Source: Anaerobaca lacustris
Lineage (GTDB): Bacteria > Planctomycetota > Phycisphaerae > Sedimentisphaerales > Anaerobacaceae
Length of the DNA: 64,000 bases
NCBI RefSeq assembly: GCF_030012215.1
Contig: NZ_JASCXX010000011.1
Span: forward strand, 62,001-126,000
Direction: 5' to 3'
The position numbers and the translations under genes are program-made. Positions within the stretch are counted from its first letter, which is position 1. Every line of letters begins with the position of its first letter. Shown here one piece after another: positions 34,555 through 44,069 of the stretch. The notes under the pieces are model-generated. The model saw only the letters and a list, made by a program, of their open reading frames with translations. It was not told the origin of the DNA and did not search any database.

Positions 34555-35382
34555 CTACTTGCGTCGCGTCCCGGCGAGGACCTTCTTCGGGTCCAGGTTG
34601 CGTATCTCGATATCCTTGAAGTAGTTGACCGTGCCGACCTTCATCTCCGCTGTCGCGTCATCGTCGCAGACGATGATCCCGTGCGGGTGCAATTGCAGAC
34701 AGGAGACGGTCCACATGTGGTTGACGCCGCCTTCGACGGCCTGCTCCAACGCGCGGGCCTTGTTGTGCCCGGAGACGATAATCAGCACCGTCCTGGCGTC
34801 CATCACGGTCGCTACGCCGACGGTCAGCGCGGTGCGCGGCACCTTGTTCAGATCGCCGTCGAAGAAGCGGGAGTTCGCGATGATGGTATCCTGGGTCAGC
34901 GTCTTGACGCGGGTGCGGCTGGCCAGCGACGAGCCGGGCTCGTTGAAGGCGATGTGCCCGTCCGGACCGATCCCGCCGACGAACAGTTGGATGCCGCCGT
35001 AGCTCTTGATCTTCCTCTCGTAGCGGTCGCACTCGGCCTGGAGGTTCTTCGCATTGCCGTTAAGGATGTTCGCGTTGGACTTCTTGATGTCGATCTTCTT
35101 GAAGAAGTTGTCCCACATGAAGGAGTAGTAGCTCTGCGGGTGCGATTTCGGCAGCCCCACGTACTCGTCCATGTTGAACGTCACAACGTTGGCGAAGCTG
35201 ACCTTCTTGGCCCGATTCAGGCGGATCAGCTCCTTGTACATGCCGAGCGGCGACGAGCCGGTAGGCAGGCCGAGCACGAACGGCTTTCGAGCCGTCGGCT
35301 TGAAATCGTTGATCGACCGGGCGACGTACGCCGCCGCCCAGGCACTGACCATCTGGTAATCATCCTGGATGATGACCCTCAT
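34555..35382 (-). CDS. nagB: Glucosamine-6-phosphate deaminase
   Basis: A 275-residue cytosolic enzyme that converts glucosamine 6-phosphate to fructose 6-phosphate and ammonium, the committed step of amino-sugar catabolism. Family motifs are present: [15 protein letters not shown] for phosphate binding (about 38-52), FNMDEYVGL (Asp as base), [14 protein letters not shown] (about 134-147), TLTQDTI, and VGVATVMDA. Length is close to the usual 260-270. The ATG at 35382 begins MRVIIQDDY; a frame six codons longer is not supported. It begins 18 bases after the DUF4954 gene, and the acp gene follows. Confidence 0.96.
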
Positions 35383-35400
35383 AACCTGCTTCCTTTCCAA

Positions 35401-37425
35401 TTAGAGATGGATGCGTTCCGTCCCCTGTCGCTGCCCAATGGCCTGCTCGATCCGCTCGATGCGTCGATGCAGCCGGTCGATACTGCTCTTCATTTCCAGC
35501 ACGAACTGGTTCTCTTCATACAGGCCCCGGACCTGCCGGAAGTCCCGCTCGACGTCGCCGGCCTCGCCGTCCTGCCCGAACCCCAGCCGGCTGGACTCGT
35601 CAAACTCCTTCTGGGCGTCAGCGGTCACGAGGTTCAGGAACTTCGATCGCACCTTCAGGAGCATCCTTGCGGCCTCGCAAGCCTGCTCATCGGTCAGGTC
35701 CGCAAGCGAGACCCCGAAGACCTGCTCGTATGCCTTCTTCACCCAGACCCATTCATCGTGCCGATAGTGCTTCGAGATATTGGTGATGGCCGCGTCGAAG
35801 GCGTCAAGCGTCGCCACCGAACCGGTTTCCAGCGCATCTTCCAGATCGACGAGCCGCTTGCGAGGCATGAGCTGTCCGGCGATGTCCACCCAGTCTTCGC
35901 TGTACACCGCATCGACCGCACTCACAGGGGCGCTCTGACCGTCTCCGGCGGGATCGTCCAGCGCCGCCTCGATTCGCTGGACCACCTTTTCCAGCAGATA
36001 CATCTCGATCCCCGTGCGGTAGTATTTCTGGCTGGTGCGCAGGAGCAGTCTCTTGACCAGGGTCCCGCCGACGGCAACTTCCTCTACTGATCGGTCGGTG
36101 GCGTCCTGCAACTCCTTCAAATGCCGGCTCGCCTTGATCATCTTGCCGATCACATACGGGCTGAAGACTTCGAACGAGATGGCGTCGCGCTTCGTGACGC
36201 CCTTGCGGCGATCGCGCTTGGGCCACTTGGCCTCGTCGCGGACGGTGCCGACGGTCGTCAGGTGGAAGCCGGGAATCATGGCGCAGCGGCCGTCCGAACG
36301 CGCTTCGAGATGGCTGAAGGGAAGGTCGCCCGTGTCGAACGTCGTGTTGTGCTTGCCGAGCACGACGCTGAACGGGCCGACCCGACAGGGCCACATCAGA
36401 TAGCTGAACGAGCCGGTCTTGGTCCCGCGCAGCAGCTTGCCCTCATGGGCCGGACCCAGCTTGTACATGTGGTTCGACTCGTTCGTGCCGCTGCCGGCGT
36501 TATAGAAGCTGAACAGCCCGGCGATCAATAGCGTCGATTTGTGGTGTGTCACAGTATATGGTCCAGCGAACACCGAGCAGGCTTCGCCGTGGAAGGCCTC
36601 ACAATTGGCGAAGAAGGCGGAGTTCTCGGCCGAGTACTGCCGGCCGATCTGGCAGCCCTGACCGACGAACACCTTGCTGAGCATCGCCCCGCCGGTCACG
36701 AACGAACTTTCGGCAACGATGAAGGCCTCGGCGATCACCTTGACGCCGATCGTGGTCGGGGCTTCCTGGGAACTCAGGATGGTTCCGTTCCGCAGGCTCG
36801 ACGTGTGATTGACCGTTGCGAAGGGCCCGATCCGAACGTCGATGATCTCCTCGGCCGAGCAGATGCTCGCTCCCGTGCCCACCTGCCCGCGGTCGGCACG
36901 AATCGAATCGACATACTCCCTGGCGATGCCGCGAAGCCGATCGATCAGCTTCGGACGATAACGATGCAGGCACATCAGGTAGGCGAACTGGGCGGACAGG
37001 CGGTCGAACAGCAGGATCTCCCGGCCGCCCGCCTCGTTGAGCACGCTGATCTCGACCCCATTGCCGAACGTCGCGCCCGGATTGGTCTGCATCGTCGCGA
37101 CGTTTTCGATGCACACGCGTTCGGCGATGTCATAATTGGCGATGTGAACGCCGATGTTGGAGATGCGCGTATCGTCGCCGATCGTGCAGTTGGAGACCAC
37201 CGCGTTGTAGACGCCGCTGGGCTTCTCGAATCCGCCCGGCAGACGGACGCGGCCGGCGAACCGCCCCAGGCGGACCGAGCCGGAGAAGTGCGAGTTCCTC
37301 ACGCTTGCCGGATCGAACCCTTCGGCCACCTCGATCCGACCCCAGTCTTCTGCAAAACAGCCCTGCATCCGCAGCAACTCAATCTCACGTCCGGTCAAGA
37401 CGCGGAACGTCTCGTGTCCGCTCAT
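35401..37425 (-). CDS. DUF4954 family protein with left-handed beta-helix (hexapeptide) repeats
   Basis: A 674-residue cytosolic protein. Residues ~45-380 hold imperfect hexapeptide-type repeats: VVSNCTIGDDTRISNIG, NVATMQTNPGATFGNGV, VRIGPFATVNHTSSLRNG, AFIVAESSFVTGGAMLSKVFVGQGCQIG. A helical C-terminal part follows with RHLKELQDATDRS and a terminal coil. Proteins of this type resemble nucleotidyl/acyltransferases of the UDP-GlcNAc pathway (GlmU-like helix), but without the transferase domain. Its neighbours nagB, ackA and pta would supply GlcN-6-P and acetyl-phosphate, so a sugar acetylation or acetyl-sensing role is possible but unproven. The ATG lies 52 bases after the FolE2-like gene. Confidence 0.85.
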   Translation of the reverse strand: MSGHETFRVLTGREIELLRMQGCFAEDWGRIEVAEGFDPASVRNSHFSGSVRLGRFAGRVRLPGGFEKPSGVYNAVVSNCTIGDDTRISNIGVHIANYDIAERVCIENVATMQTNPGATFGNGVEISVLNEAGGREILLFDRLSAQFAYLMCLHRYRPKLIDRLRGIAREYVDSIRADRGQVGTGASICSAEEIIDVRIGPFATVNHTSSLRNGTILSSQEAPTTIGVKVIAEAFIVAESSFVTGGAMLSKVFVGQGCQIGRQYSAENSAFFANCEAFHGEACSVFAGPYTVTHHKSTLLIAGLFSFYNAGSGTNESNHMYKLGPAHEGKLLRGTKTGSFSYLMWPCRVGPFSVVLGKHNTTFDTGDLPFSHLEARSDGRCAMIPGFHLTTVGTVRDEAKWPKRDRRKGVTKRDAISFEVFSPYVIGKMIKASRHLKELQDATDRSVEEVAVGGTLVKRLLLRTSQKYYRTGIEMYLLEKVVQRIEAALDDPAGDGQSAPVSAVDAVYSEDWVDIAGQLMPRKRLVDLEDALETGSVATLDAFDAAITNISKHYRHDEWVWVKKAYEQVFGVSLADLTDEQACEAARMLLKVRSKFLNLVTADAQKEFDESSRLGFGQDGEAGDVERDFRQVRGLYEENQFVLEMKSSIDRLHRRIERIEQAIGQRQGTERIHL

Positions 37426-37477: not shown

Positions 37478-38278
37478 CTACAGATGCTCGTCGAACCCAC
37501 TGAACGGAACCCAGGCGCTCTTCTCCGTCCGGATGATCGTACTGTAGGAGTGGAGCATGCCGTAGTTCGAGCAGTCGATGGCATACCACTCGATGTTGCG
37601 GTCACGGGCCAGCTCTTTGCGGACCTCATCGACCACGACGACGCTGGTCTTCTCCTCCGAGTGGACCTTCTCGATGATAAACCGCTGGTCGTCTTCACTG
37701 AGGAAGGAGTAGACCGAGGCCAGCACGTGCCGGTCGACCATGTCCACGATGTCTTCCGGATAGACATCCGCCTGGCTCTGCACGGAGATGTCGAGCACGC
37801 TCAACTGTCCGAACAGGCCCGTGGGACTGCTGGCGTTCGACGCCGGATAGGTCGTGATGCAGGGCACCTGAATCCTGAACGTCACGGCGGCCGGCTCGTC
37901 CACCGAATGGGCCTTGGCCGCGTACTCGCAAAGGTACCGCACGAGGCACATCTCGCCCGAAACAGGGGTCCGTTTTGCGATGAAGAACGGATAGTCGAAC
38001 GCGATCTTCATCGCCGTCGCTTCGAGTTCGGTGATGTAGTCGCCCAGATTGTGGCGGAGCGTCCGGGTCCCGATGTTCTCACGATGGCTGTGGAGCACGT
38101 GGATGAATCGGTCGATCCAACGCGCCTCGAACGTCTGCATGATACGGGCGTTGATCGAGATATTCGCCACGGTCGCCTGTCCGTCCGGCTCGACCCGCGA
38201 GACCGCACGGATCGGAAACGGCATGTCCCGCAGGCCTACGTCCACCATAAAACGTCGATCGTCTCTGCTGTCTGTCAT
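37478..38278 (-). CDS. FolE2/MptA-like protein (GTP cyclohydrolase I-B family) lacking expected metal ligands
   Basis: A 266-residue homologue of GTP cyclohydrolase IB. The fold-defining parts are there: DRRFMVDVGLRDMPFPIRAV (8-26), ARWIDRFIHVLHSHRENIG (52-70), DYPFFIAKRTPVSG (95-108). But the segment that in active enzymes reads about C-P-C-S...G-A-H-N-Q-R is here YPASNASSPTGLFGQ (144-158): both cysteines and the histidine are gone. The late E-S-I-H motif is also changed to YGMLHSY (239-245). If this alignment from memory is right, the metal site of the canonical enzyme cannot form, so the protein probably has a new activity or a non-catalytic role. It lies 13 bases after ackA. Confidence 0.8.
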   Translation of the reverse strand: MTDSRDDRRFMVDVGLRDMPFPIRAVSRVEPDGQATVANISINARIMQTFEARWIDRFIHVLHSHRENIGTRTLRHNLGDYITELEATAMKIAFDYPFFIAKRTPVSGEMCLVRYLCEYAAKAHSVDEPAAVTFRIQVPCITTYPASNASSPTGLFGQLSVLDISVQSQADVYPEDIVDMVDRHVLASVYSFLSEDDQRFIIEKVHSEEKTSVVVVDEVRKELARDRNIEWYAIDCSNYGMLHSYSTIIRTEKSAWVPFSGFDEHL

Positions 38279-38291
38279 ATCAGGCTCTTCA

Positions 38292-39506
38292 TTATACAGT
38301 TCCAGGTTCGCCGTTGCCGCCGACCAGTTCGAAGGCGTCCCTGGCGATTGCCTGTTCTTCGTTCGTGGGGATTACCAGCACCTGGACGCGGCTGTCCGGG
38401 ACGGTGACCGCCGACTCGCGTCCGCCCGCCTCGGCGTTGGCCTTCGGATCGAGCGCAATGCCCAAGTGGGTCATGTCCCGGCACACCAGCTCGCGCACGA
38501 GCGAGGAATTCTCGCCGATGCCGCCGGTGAAGACGACCGCATCGACGCCATCGAGTACGGCCGAATACGCCCCAACGTATTTGCGAACGCGATAGCAGAA
38601 TATCTCGATGGCCAGGGCGGCGCGGTCATTGCCCTCTTCGGCGCGCTTCTGCAGCGTCCGCATGTCGTTCGATACGCCCGAGATCCCGAGCAGGCCACTC
38701 TTCTTGTTGCACAGCCCGTTCAACGTCGCCAGGTCGTAACCCTTGTCGGCCAGGTAGAATAGGATCGCCGGGTCGAAATCGCCCGCCCGTGTTCCCATCA
38801 CCAGACCTTCCAGCGGGGTGAATCCCATCGACGTATCAACCGACCGGCCCTTTCGCACGGCGGCGACCGAGCAGCCGTTGCCCAAGTGGCAGGTGATGGC
38901 ATTTAAGTCGTGCTTGTCTCGCCCGATCATCGCCGCCGCCCGCCGGGCGACGTAGCGGTGGCTGGTCCCGTGAAAGCCGTACCGACGCACGCGATGTCGC
39001 TCGTACAATTCGAAGGGCAAGGCGTACATGTGCGCGACCTTCGGGATGCTCGTGTGGAAGGCGGTGTCGAAACAGGCGACCTGCGCCGTGCCCGGCAGCT
39101 TGCGCATCGCAGCCCGGATACCGACGAGGTTGTGCGGGTTGTGCAGCGGCGCCAGCTCGGCGAAACGCTCGATCGAGTCCAGGACGCGGTCATCGATCTT
39201 CACCGAGCCGGTAAACTCTTCCCCGCCATGCACTACGCGGTGGCCCACGGCGCCGATCTCCGAAAGGTCCGCAACCGCCCCTTCGCCGGGCTTGACCAGC
39301 ACCTTGAGGATCAGTTCCATCGCGGTCTCGTGGCTGGGGACCGCCTCCTCCAGCGTGGTCGAATTGCCGGCACAGGTGTGCGACAGCCTCGACGTCGGCT
39401 CTCCGATTCGCTCGACGAACCCCTTGGCCAGAACCTCTGCGCGCGGCATGTCGTACAGTTGATACTTGATCGAAGAACTGCCGGCGTTGATCACGAGCAC
39501 CTTCAC
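38292..39506 (-). CDS. ackA: Acetate kinase
   Basis: A 404-residue ASKHA-fold kinase that interconverts acetate/ATP and acetyl phosphate/ADP. Motifs: MKVLVINAGSSSIKYQL at the start (GTG codon at 39506), GHRVVHGGEEF, FDTAFHTSIP, RRYGFHGTSHRYV, TCHLGNGCSVAAV, TPLEGLVMGTRAGDFDP and FTGGIGENS. Length is typical. GTG is preferred over upstream starts because the protein family begins with exactly this strand. It begins seven bases after the pta stop, so acetyl-CoA to acetate flux is encoded together. Together with pta it would give ATP during fermentation or make acetyl phosphate. Confidence 0.97.
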   Translation of the reverse strand: MKVLVINAGSSSIKYQLYDMPRAEVLAKGFVERIGEPTSRLSHTCAGNSTTLEEAVPSHETAMELILKVLVKPGEGAVADLSEIGAVGHRVVHGGEEFTGSVKIDDRVLDSIERFAELAPLHNPHNLVGIRAAMRKLPGTAQVACFDTAFHTSIPKVAHMYALPFELYERHRVRRYGFHGTSHRYVARRAAAMIGRDKHDLNAITCHLGNGCSVAAVRKGRSVDTSMGFTPLEGLVMGTRAGDFDPAILFYLADKGYDLATLNGLCNKKSGLLGISGVSNDMRTLQKRAEEGNDRAALAIEIFCYRVRKYVGAYSAVLDGVDAVVFTGGIGENSSLVRELVCRDMTHLGIALDPKANAEAGGRESAVTVPDSRVQVLVIPTNEEQAIARDAFELVGGNGEPGTV

Positions 39507-39513
39507 AGAAGTC

Positions 39514-40563
39514 TCACCCCTGCCTTTCTTCGCCGGGACCGGCGTCTTTGACCTGGGCCAGTGTGATGATCGCGGTGGTGACGATGTCCTCAACGGACGC
39601 CCCCCTCGACAGGTCCGCCATGGGCCTGGCGAACCCCTGGAGGAACGGCCCGATCGCCCGCGCGCCGGCCATGTACTGCGTCAGCTTGTAGGCGATGTTC
39701 CCGGCGTCGAGGTCGGGAAAGATCAACACGTTCGCACGGCCTGCCACTTCGCTGCCGTCCTTGACCTTTTTCTGCGCCACGCGAGCGACGACGGCGGCAT
39801 CGGCTTGAAGCTCTCCATCGACGGCCAGATCGCTCCGCCGCGAACGCACGATCTCCAGAGCGTTGCGGACCTTCTCGGCGCTGGGGCCGTCGGCGCTGCC
39901 CCGAGTCGAATACGACAGCAGCGCGACGCGAGGCGCCTCCGACAACAAGCCCTCGGCACTCTGGGCCGAGGCCAGTGCGATATCGGCCAACTGCTCGGCG
40001 GTCGGGTCGATATTGACCGCACAGTCGGCGTAGACGAACACCTTGTCGCGCTCGTCGCCGAACCGCGGCACAATCATAAGAAAGTAGCTCGACACCGTCT
40101 CGATGCCTTCGGCCAGCCCCACCGTGAGCGCCCCGGCCTGGATCACCGTCGCGGTCGCTGTCGCAGCGCCGGCCACCATCGCATGCGCATCGCCGCAGGC
40201 GACCATCATGCCGCCGTGGAAGAGCGCCTTGGCGACCATCCGCCGGGCCACACCCGGCGCGATGTTGTCCCGGCCTTCCATGTATCGCCCGACGTACGCA
40301 TCCAGACGCGGGCTCTCCTTGGGATCCAGGGTCTCGATGCCGTCCAGCGATGCGCCCGCTTCCTTCGATGCCGTCTCGATCTGCTCGCGCGTCCCCAGGA
40401 CGATCGGCTCGGCGATCTGTCTGTCGCGAATCTCCCGGGCGGCCAAGACAATGCGAGCGTCACGTCCCTCCGGCAGGACCAGGCGAAGCTTGCGACCGAC
40501 AACCCTCGCGGTAAAGGTGTCGATGACGTCCGCTTTCGCGCGGCTTGAATCCAACTCAACCAT
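39514..40563 (-). CDS. pta: Phosphate acetyltransferase
   Basis: A 349-residue enzyme that exchanges acetyl-CoA and phosphate for acetyl phosphate. Family signatures: [20 protein letters not shown] near the N-terminus, [19 protein letters not shown] (~124-142), [16 protein letters not shown] (~236-251), and a C-terminal [18 protein letters not shown] block. It is the short, single-domain form, without the N-terminal regulatory DRTGG domain. The start at 40563 has GGAG seven bases upstream. It heads the longest uninterrupted operon of the window. A 16-base hairpin (40677-40692) lies about 115 bases upstream. Confidence 0.97.
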
Positions 40564-40676
40564 GGGCGTTCTCCCATTGATGGTGTGTGGATTTCGATGG
40601 ACCGCCCCACGATAGCGGCCCGGCGCCAATGCGCCAAGCAAGAAAAGCGACAGAAACTCTGCCGATGAGATACAGC

Positions 40677-40692
40677 ATGGGCTAAAGCCCAT
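40677..40692. repeat. Short perfect inverted repeat upstream of pta
   Basis: ATGGGCT, two bases, then AGCCCAT, giving a 7-bp stem, just after the DUF5107-TPR gene ends (40706, minus strand). It lies downstream of that gene and upstream of pta, so it could end one transcript and precede the other. The element resembles small GGGCTAAAGCCC repeats scattered in some planctomycete genomes, an impression I cannot verify here. Confidence 0.45.
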
Positions 40693-40705: not shown

Positions 40706-43700
40706 TCACTCGGTCTCCTTCAGGGCCGCGTGACAGAGTTCGCGGGACGCGTCCTGTTCGCTGGAGCCGGCCGGGCCGGCCGCACCCAGCTTCCAGGCCG
40801 AGCGGGCCTGCTCCAAGCGTCCAAGTGCCTGCAACGCTCTGCCTCGCCAGTACTGGGCCGTCGCCTCCTGCGGCTTGTTCGAACGCCCGACGCCGATGTT
40901 GTCGGGGTAGGTCAGCGCCGCTTCGAAATGCCGCAACGCCCCGGTGAAGTCCCCGTCGTCGAAACGGATTCGACCGCGTGCCATGTGGGCCTTGTGGAAC
41001 AGGTCCCACGTAATCGTCTGCCCCTCCCAGTTGACGAAGTACGGCGTCGATTCGAGCAGGTCGATCGCTTCATCGTACTGTCGCTCGTCGCAGTAGAGCT
41101 GGGCCAGAAGGATGATGATCTCCGCCCGCCGCAGCTTGTCGGCCGGGGTCGATTCGAGCAAGGCAATCGCCTCGGGTCGCCGATCCTGCTCCAGAAGAAT
41201 CTCCGCCAGGTCGCGATAGAGCGTCTGGTCCTTCGGCCGGGCGGCGATGGCCCGGCGATAGGCTCGCTCGGCCTTGGGCAGGTCGTCTTCCTCGGCCCGA
41301 GCGTAAAGCCCGAGGTTGCGATGGGCCACGCTGAGCGATGGGTCCAGATCGACGGCCCTCTGCCACTGCGGGGCCGCCTCCTCCACCCGGCCGAGATGGG
41401 CGTAGAGACTGCCGAGATGCAGATGGGCGCAGGCATCGCTTGGATTCTCGCGAATCGCGTAGCGCAGGACCTCGACGGCCTCCGGACGCGAGGGGAAGAC
41501 ATAATCGCGGACGATTCGGGAGGCTTGGTTCAGATGCTCTCTCGCCGCGGCGCTGTCGCCTGCGAGCGAGGCATAGTAGGCCAGGTAGTACAACGGCAGC
41601 GGACTGCGTTGCGATTCGGGCACGGCTTCGATGCAGACGGCGGACAACACCCGCTCCGCTTCCCGCACCAGACCCACGTCGGCAAACAGCAGGCTCGTCT
41701 CGATCATCTGGAAATCATGCTCGCCGACGAACGCGCGGGCCTCTTTGACGAAACGATCCATGTCCTTGTCGCCCTGCAGCGCCCGAATCGCCCGGGGCAC
41801 GAGGTCGGTTGGGAATGCTGCAGAAACTTGGCGAGCTTCGTTGAATGCGGCCCCCGTCTCGCCGGCGGCATACAGAGCCAGCAGCCAATGGTCGCGCGCC
41901 TTGCCGTCATTTGGGTTCAGGCTCACCGCCTTCTCGAAGGCGTCGAGGGCCATCCGCTTCTGACCCAACGCGGCATGGGCCCGGCCCGCCAGATCGAATG
42001 CCAGAGACGCGGACACAGCATATCGCGCCGCCTGCCGGGCGCAGCGAAGGGCCGCCGACGCATCGTGGCGTTTCAGATGGGCGATGCCCAGGAAATACCA
42101 GGCCGTCCCATCGTCCGGGTCACGTTCGAGCGCCCTTTCCAGCCGGGAGACTGCCTCGGCATAGAGCCCGGCTTCGACATCCAGGACGGCCAGTCCGACC
42201 AGAGCCGGCGCGTAGCCACTGTCCTGAGCCAGTGCTTTCTCGTAATACTCACGAGCCTTCTTGCGGTCGGTCGCCAGATCGTATTTGCGGCCCCGGAGCA
42301 GCCTCTCCTCCAACGTCAGCTCCGCATCGGGCTTGTCCAGAACCTTGCTGCGGGGCGGAGGCGTCACCTCCGGAATCGGCAAGGGTGTCGTGAAATGGGC
42401 CAGTGTGTCGCCCTGTCGCGTCTTGACCGTCACTTCGGCCGGCCCCTGTGGCGCGGGCGAAACGGCAATGAGCCTGACTTTCTCGGGCGACAGGTCCAAC
42501 CGCTCGGTCAACAGTTCCGTGCCGTCTTGGGAGACCGTGCACGTTGCACGCGCGAATCGTCCCGTCGCCAGCATGTGCAATTCCAGTTGCCCATCCCGGC
42601 GGCTCGTCTGAACGGCGATGTCCTTCGTGGCGAACTCGAAGCCGTCGCCCAGCCCGTGGACGGGATACCACCACTCTCGCCAGGCGACCTCCTGCCGGGG
42701 CAGCAGCATGCCGTAGTCCGACTGCGTCGGCAACGGCCCGCTCTGGACCTCAATGTACGGGCCGTCGTCGTCGGTGAGGTTCTTCTGGCTGACCAAACCA
42801 AAATCCCACGTCCCCCACGTCCAGGCCTTCTTGCCGCTCAGTTCGTAGTGGTCGGCCACCTGCACAATGCCGCGATCGTCATCGACGTCGTAGGCGCCGA
42901 AGAAGTCGAACGCACAGTCAACCGAGAAGATCGACGCCCACGTCTCATAGTTCTTCAGCCAGGAAAGGTCTTTGCCCTCGTGGATCGGCCAGTTGAAGAA
43001 TTCTCTGCCGTGGTGGTCGGTGCCCAGCGTCATCGGATAGATGAACCGCGTCCCGCTCTTGGCGGGGAAGGCGGTGCAGTTCCAGAAGTAGTACGGATTG
43101 ACCGCATCGACCGGGTTGAAGATACGGATTTGCTCATCCAGATACGCCCGGCCGGGGTGCAGCGTCACGCGTACGGTCCAGCGGGTGCGCAGGGTCTTCT
43201 CCAGATTGCTGACTTCGAGATAGGCCGAGCCGTCCTTGTTCGTGCCGACCAGCGCATCGACGGGCGAGAGGATCGTGACCGTATGCACCTGCGGGCCGGC
43301 GTTCCACTCGACGCCCCCGCTGATGAACGCCCCGCGCATGGCGATCATGCCCGGCTTGATGACGTTGTTGAGGTGAAAGGTTTCCTCGCCCGTGGTCTTG
43401 TCGAGCACCGAATGCAGCCGCCCGCCCAACTCCGGCAGGCACGTCACCTTCAGATACTCGTTCTCCAGGAACAGGGCCTTGTAGGTTCGGTCCTCCTTCT
43501 CGCGATACAGGTGATCCTGCATGGAATAGGGGTAGACGATCGCCCCTTTGACCGTAGTAGACAGCCTGATCCGGTCCTCCAGGGCCCAGAACTTCGGATT
43601 GACGTCCTCGGACCATCCGTAGGTGGGAATCGTGATCGCGCCCTGCCAGGCCTTCGTCTTCGCCTGCATCTGCGCGCAGCACGACAGCACCAGCACCGCG

Positions 43701-43747
43701 CACCAGATCACTATCAGGACATTGCGCCTTCGATCCTTCTGCTCCAT
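40706..43747 (-). CDS. DUF5107 domain protein with C-terminal TPR array
   Basis: A 1013-residue exported protein. A membrane/signal segment at about 9-26 ([18 protein letters not shown]) precedes the DUF5107 domain (about 60-380: [51 protein letters not shown]), which is a galactose-mutarotase-like sandwich. A short Ig-like linker follows. From about residue 515 the chain is [85 protein letters not shown] and more. This layout is widespread in carbohydrate-degrading bacteria, function unknown. The start at 43747 lacks a strong ribosome site. Nothing in the sequence shows catalysis. Confidence 0.87.
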
Positions 43748-44069
43748 TGCCCCGCCTTTCGCTCCATGTGTCTTCAAGCAGTTCCGGCCGGCCATTCCGC
43801 GATGGGCACCCCTGCCGACCAACGGCCTTTCGACAGGCATGCTACACGAATCCAGGCCGGATGCAACGGTTTTGGCGACGACTTCCAGGGCGAAGTGCGA
43901 GTAGAGCCTCGAACCCGGCTTCCTGCAACGTGGGTGCCGGCGGGGTTGACACGAGAACAGATCGATCATAGCATAACACTGTGAAACCAGGACACCGGTG
44001 CACAATGCCGGCGGTTCCGACGTAGCAGCTTATGCTATGCGAACGCCAAATGGTACAAGGAGATCCATC
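43748..44069. other. Divergent intergenic region
   Basis: About 320 bases between the minus-strand DUF5107 gene and a plus-strand gene. It holds a plus-strand promoter (43946-43974, listed separately). I could not identify the minus-strand promoter with confidence. Confidence 0.5.
43946..43974 (+). promoter_or_regulatory. Promoter of the proline-rich exported protein gene
   Basis: Perfect TTGACA (43946-43951), 17-base spacer, TAGCAT (43969-43974). Transcription would begin near 43981, about 90 bases before the ATG at 44070. Confidence 0.5.

Follow-up and report, generated by a model that had tools for sequence, protein, structure and literature searches.

What does a FolE2 homolog do once most of its metal ligands have been replaced and its gene lies beside acetate kinase rather than among folate genes? 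FolE2 normally starts folate-vitamin synthesis, and its homologs are automatically annotated as GTP cyclohydrolase. The question is raised by a gene in a 64,000-nucleotide stretch of the Anaerobaca lacustris genome (contig NZ_JASCXX010000011.1, positions 62,001 to 126,000; hereafter the window), which we name folE2x, its product being FolE2x. An initial annotation recognized the FolE2-like character of the protein and considered a derived function likely, giving no function; the recurrent linkage to acetate kinase reported here gives a direction.

A FolE2 Homolog with a Remodeled Active Site

The folE2x open reading frame (ORF) is intact (Table 1). Its product matches the Pfam GCHY-1/FolE2 family (PF02649) with an E value of 3.8e-25 and 89.3 bits (cut-off 25), and it falls below the cut-offs of the NCBIfam FolE2 equivalog (70.7 bits; cut-off 215) and MptA (16 bits; cut-off 468) models. 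The best PDB sequence matches by phmmer (best E value 6.7e-26) are three, all of them FolE2 (2r5r, 3d2o/5k95, and 8g6c), one further match being at chance level (E 0.62). An AlphaFold model built on a 29-row alignment of the folE2x family (pLDDT 82.8) matches FolE2 by Foldseek and VIA-align with Z scores of 22.6-24.3 over 229-234 residues, spanning residues 5-243; its next fold neighbors are uricases (Z 11-13). The FolE2-like identity claimed at the outset is thus borne out by the Pfam score and by PDB matches exclusive to FolE2 above chance: FolE2x is a genuine FolE2/GCYH-IB homolog with the same fold. Residues 245-266, which have low confidence in the monomer model, contain a conserved TEKSxWVPFSG tail, and conservation despite low monomer confidence suggests that the tail may be a subunit or partner contact.

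Table 1. Coordinates of folE2x, its neighbors in the window, and tandem acetate kinase genes at other loci
Feature	Coordinates	Strand	Description
folE2x	37478..38278	-	FolE2-like protein, 266 aa, remodeled active site depleted of metal ligands; ATG at 38278, end at 37478
ackA	38292..39506	-	ATP-type acetate kinase; PF00871 507 bits; stop 13 nt before folE2x ATG; start set at GTG before KVLVINAGSSS (mechanical ORF extends to 39593)
pta	39514..40692	-	Phosphate acetyltransferase; PF01515 355 bits; immediately upstream of ackA
DUF4954/DUF6819 gene	35401..37425	-	Left-handed beta-helix type protein; 52 nt downstream of folE2x
nagB	34555..35400	-	Glucosamine-6-phosphate deaminase; abuts DUF4954 gene; same local array
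Putative PPi-type ackA followed by predicted dead ackA paralog	L016:3727-5998, L015:3684-5977, L020:3711-6007, L037:3708-5992, L194:2115-4474		Myxococcota, Planctomycetota, Lentisphaerota

Residues were mapped by alignment, with N. gonorrhoeae FolE2 numbering as the reference. The metal ligands of that enzyme are C147, H159, E201, and H246, reportedly so assigned in the GCYH-IB literature by Sankaran in 2009 and Paranagama in 2017. Three motif replacements described in the initial annotation (CPCS to YPAS, GAHNQRS to GLFGQLS, and FESIHNHS to YGMLHSYS) are present in the alignment with PDB sequences. Its further statement that all expected metal ligands are replaced holds for C147 (Y144), H159 (F156), and E201 (Q198) and fails for H246, which is retained as H243 in 29/29 members of the family. 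The change at E201 was missing from its list, as were those at E216 (V213), R220 (D217), and H248 (Y245); C149 is A146 in the window and A, G, or S across the variant clade, E243 is G240, and several basic residues that are invariant in canonical FolE2 are also replaced. Each of C147, C149, H159, E201, E216, R220, E243, and H248 is 100% conserved in the canonical rows, and at the four ligand positions conservation is 100% across 68 canonical FolE2s plus five planctomycete FolE2s of ~25% identity. Since the ligands are so invariant in canonical and divergent FolE2s, and since the new letters Y144, F156, and Q198 are 97-100% conserved within the variant clade, the replacement is beyond chance.

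The variant has also acquired constraints of its own. Invariant in the 29 aligned members are Y144, P145, S147, Q158, S160, H206, S212, G240, M241, L242, H243, T247, K253, W256, and P258, and the gained invariant residues of the variant include E51, W54, D56, Y144, H206, S212, K253, W256, and P258; the assignment of residues to the pocket follows their alignment to known FolE2 residues. Over 17 active-site columns the mean net charge is +3.8 in canonical and divergent FolE2s versus -1.3 in the variant, a reversal that argues against triphosphate binding. There is a strong case that FolE2x would have no GTP cyclohydrolase activity. We think it very improbable that FolE2x is still a nucleotide cyclohydrolase whose metal site has moved (being formed, for example, by H243, H206, D197, and the conserved Cys111/Cys117): H246 is kept, and a new invariant His and conserved Cys are present, but replacements affect E216, C149, E243, and H248 along with several invariant basic residues, the charge is reversed, and normal cyclohydrolases are encoded in the same genomes.

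A Distinct Clade under Purifying Selection

Scanning genomes with the seven relatives found first gave 32 loci encoding proteins of 53-98% identity, from Phycisphaerae/Sedimentisphaerales, Myxococcales, Geobacteraceae, Pelobacter, Syntrophobacteraceae, Lentisphaerota, Poribacteria, Zixibacteria, KSB1, TA06, and Theseobacter. Metagenome assembly is the source of nearly all carrier genomes, and no cultured carrier was identified among those found. The phylogeny that the initial annotation had proposed places the variant in a clade of its own: in a 102-row maximum-likelihood tree, 29 variants form one clade (support 100/100). Its stem is 5.07 changes per column long, and every branch inside it is shorter than 0.7. 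The split is equally clean in the scores of 141 Geobacterales genomes, where the ten variant matches reach 404-487 bits and the canonical remainder stays at 168 bits or less. Within the window's family, a PF02649 gene is present in 7 of 89 genomes and is always the folE2x variant; in a sample of the remaining phylum no variant-like full-length match was found, all scoring like canonical or divergent FolE2. Plasmid-borne spread was considered and rejected, the matches in a plasmid collection being at merely canonical level (22-25% identity).

Between close folE2x pairs dN/dS is 0.04-0.14, a sign of strong purifying selection. A decaying pseudogene or assembly artifact, to which the frameshifted homolog at locus L039 might point, is refuted by these ratios and by open frames in nearly all carriers, across independent assemblies and phyla; we give this explanation next to no probability.

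The original function is supplied elsewhere. A search for FolE1 and FolE2, another check proposed in the initial annotation, found one normal FolE1 in the same genome (255 bits, CEHH motif intact) and no second FolE2 in that genome; among 30 carrier genomes searched, canonical FolE2 coexists with folE2x in 12, in one of which (G505) it appears as two pieces flanking masked bases. Judged by gene content, folE2x need not supply dihydroneopterin triphosphate to the folate or queuosine pathway. The separate clade, the purifying selection, and the coexisting canonical FolE2 or FolE1 together make a derived function very likely, as had been anticipated.

Recurrent Linkage to Acetate Kinase

The gene order in the window is pta-ackA-folE2x-DUF4954-nagB, so the reported position between ackA and the DUF4954 gene is correct. 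The accompanying remark that the neighborhood is not folate-related also stands, although pta-ackA, its informative part, had been used merely in that negative sense. The DUF4954 gene is linked to folE2x solely in the window's close relatives. Just upstream of pta, a 1099-aa protein with DUF5107 and many TPR repeats is encoded on the minus strand (40706-44005), and a second acetate kinase gene of the same genome, adjoining a phosphoketolase (Xfp) gene, is found on contig C49 (L179:4724-8381). Promoter and terminator scans gave signals no better than chance.

Unbiased all-against-all clustering of ORFs from 33 loci identified acetate kinase as the most widespread neighbor of folE2x (18/33, counting ackA or an ackA paralog within flanks of ~6-7 kb per side); judged from their coordinates, the other large ORF clusters are folE2x itself or shadow frames that overlap. 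Three arrangements were found. The window's relatives have pta-ackA-folE2x; Pelobacter (L036) has a convergent ackA; and Myxococcales, fen Phycisphaerae, and Lentisphaerota, representing at least three phyla, have a putative PPi-type ackA, an ackA paralog (ackA'), and folE2x in series, often with overlapping ends (L013, L015-L018, L020, and L037; contig ends truncate L023 and L039). When 337 genomes of one phylum were scanned later, folE2x turned up in two: the Lentisphaerota genome already known and a new one whose locus (L194) again has the order ackA-ackA'-folE2x, and a search of the same 337 genomes for ackA' returned exactly the same two. The chance of the two genes sharing the same genome pair is 1/56,616, with relatedness ignored. 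Operons can spread by transfer, so the phyla are not fully independent witnesses.

Linkage is not universal. No ackA was found within 6-7 kb per side of folE2x at L019, L022, L024, and L027, or in a 14-kb stretch at L195, a new locus from Myxococcota, and the neighbors vary widely at other loci. These lineages, together with an hgcA gene upstream of folE2x at L031, favor the view that the acetate link is incidental, with folE2x having another role and the ackA neighborhood being inherited or transferred and kept by hitchhiking. Three distinct ackA arrangements with frequently overlapping ends and the exact co-occurrence of folE2x and ackA' in 337 genomes speak against it, and we regard it as distinctly unlikely. 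The L031 gene (L031:2769-4043; Syntrophobacteraceae) encodes the mercury methylation corrinoid protein HgcA (459 bits), and family search of the ORF between it and folE2x did not find HgcB. A link to mercury methylation was rejected as probably incidental: only 10 of the 37 carrier genomes encode HgcA, and the window's genus lacks it.

The gene preceding folE2x in Geobacteraceae encodes a protein of 451 aa whose closest family is acylating acetaldehyde dehydrogenase (AdhE model 576 bits, below cut-off), and at L025 and L026 ackA and pta are present too. The dehydrogenase is found at 83% identity or more in 10/10 Geobacterales carriers versus 2/131 noncarriers, relatedness being uncorrected; the copy in G566 is an adjacent contig-end fragment only. 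At L026, L028, L029, L030, L033, L131, L132, and L133, the dehydrogenase-like gene lies on one side of folE2x and a cluster for a NuoL/NuoH/hydrogenase-type membrane complex on the other. In another genome carrying folE2x elsewhere, a canonical folE2 lies ~0.9 kb upstream of ackA (G491:C150; L178:4078-6739), with an apparent nucleoside diphosphate kinase gene between them.

The Acetate Kinases Encoded beside folE2x

The ~358-aa ackA' product can be aligned with known AckA structures starting at residue ~79. Catalytic residues of AckA include N7, R91, D148, H180, N211, R241, and E384 (M. thermophila numbering); among these, D148 alone is always kept in AckA', which lacks the other six. By sequence, AckA' is predicted to be catalytically dead. 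An obligate partnership between AckA' and FolE2x was rejected, the dead paralog not being found in the window's genus, Geobacterales, or Pelobacter; since the window lacks it, the role of folE2x cannot depend on it. Elsewhere in Myxococcales, ackA occurs in tandem with an ackA-like gene that is shorter (349 aa), the stretch examined containing no folE2x (G483:C453; L176:3867-6142), and G486:C147 (L177) has a similar pair of ackA-like matches; these are perhaps a second acetate kinase/pseudokinase pair.

The AckA encoded beside AckA' has an extended GTGGSS loop and an Asp-Asp ADENOSINE motif, and its best PDB match is the Entamoeba AckA 4h0o. All of the PPi-type features (extended PHOSPHATE2 loop, second Gly, and ADENOSINE Asp) are found at L015-L017, L020, L037, and L194. 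An extended PHOSPHATE2 loop with a second Gly and an ADENOSINE Asp has been described for the Entamoeba PPi-AckA and four putative Anaerolineaceae enzymes, and PPi-type AckA is reported from Entamoeba, the four Anaerolineaceae, and some digester metagenomes (PMC5517563). The putative enzymes found here share the same loop and Asp-Asp motif and differ in being encoded beside a predicted dead AckA paralog and folE2x. The AckA of the window has GNGCS and FTGGIG in place of the PPi-type motifs and is of the ordinary ATP type; with an ATP-type enzyme in the window and PPi-like enzymes at other loci, the linkage of folE2x is not confined to a single phosphoryl donor.

A Proposed Role at the Acetate/Acetyl-Phosphate Node

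Because of the conserved operons and the co-occurrence, we place the role of folE2x at the acetate/acetyl-phosphate node with moderate confidence. Our preferred reading, to which we give somewhat less than an even chance, is that FolE2x is a remodeled, metal-less tunneling-fold protein acting at this node in anaerobes, most likely as a ligand-binding partner of acetate kinase; that it is such a partner rather than an enzyme we hold only weakly. This descendant of GTP cyclohydrolase IB has lost the residues for GTP ring-opening, including the canonical metal site and the conserved Glu216, and has inverted the charge of its pocket. The invariant pocket (Y144, S147, Q158, Q198, H206, H243, and Y245, with E51/W54/D56 on the other half) would bind a small metabolite, and the FolE2x oligomer would tune or assemble acetate kinase, possibly via the TEKSxWVPFSG tail. 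In some lineages the dead AckA paralog may join the FolE2x-AckA assembly. A bolder version, possible but rather unlikely, is a three-part complex of PPi-type AckA, the dead paralog, and a FolE2-derived subunit that senses a metabolite or performs metal-free chemistry, of which the window would represent a version with ATP-type AckA and no dead paralog. By analogy, a live AckA with a dead AckA and a metal-stripped FolE2 resembles heteromeric assemblies with regulatory pseudosubunits.

FolE2x might instead be a metal-independent enzyme of the uricase or QueF kind, with a new site around H243, H206, and Y144 and a substrate or product that feeds acetate/acetyl-phosphate metabolism. The new pocket residues are invariant in 29 sequences from many phyla, as catalysis would demand, and the metal-free uricases are the next fold neighbors (Z 11-13). 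This proposal comes without a candidate reaction, fold similarity says nothing on function, and the recurrent pairing with a dead AckA paralog suits assembly or regulation at least equally; we consider the enzyme unlikely, though far from negligible.

As a vitamin-pathway enzyme that discarded its metal site, kept its fold, acquired a new invariant pocket, and entered ackA operons in several phyla, FolE2x would be a clear functional recruitment, and it hints at a control or chemistry, so far not described, that involves the central energy intermediate acetyl-phosphate. Every carrier of the clade is likely misannotated, and putative bacterial PPi-type acetate kinases are placed in an operon with testable partners. 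In the open-access literature, subscription papers being outside the scope of the search, we found no earlier description of a metal-stripped FolE2 variant or of its link to ackA.

Comparison with Known Systems

QueF is a metal-free tunneling-fold enzyme, and urate oxidase, also metal-free, shares the superfamily fold as the next structural neighbor of FolE2x at ~4-10% identity; no catalytic residues shared by FolE2x and uricase or QueF could be matched. GTP cyclohydrolase IV/MptA belongs to the same superfamily and COG, yet FolE2x scores far below the cut-off of its model, as given above. The divergent planctomycete FolE2 group (L181-L185), with ~25% identity to N. gonorrhoeae and other PDB FolE2s and an insertion between the CPC and H159 motifs, differs from FolE2x in keeping all four ligands together with C149, E216, E243, and H248; being likewise strongly diverged with an intact site, it shows that a FolE2 can diverge this far without losing the site. 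The closest known system is GCYH-IB itself (FolE2, COG1469, PF02649; PDB 3d2o, 5k95, 2r5r, and 8g6c), with which FolE2x has full-length homology at ~24-25% identity, the bimodular tunneling fold, as well as H246 and such scaffold positions as P145, S147, and Q158, in common. What sets FolE2x apart from it, beyond the altered site, is an added, conserved C-terminal W-x-P-x-S motif and a recurrent genomic partner that is ackA rather than the genes of folate or queuosine synthesis.
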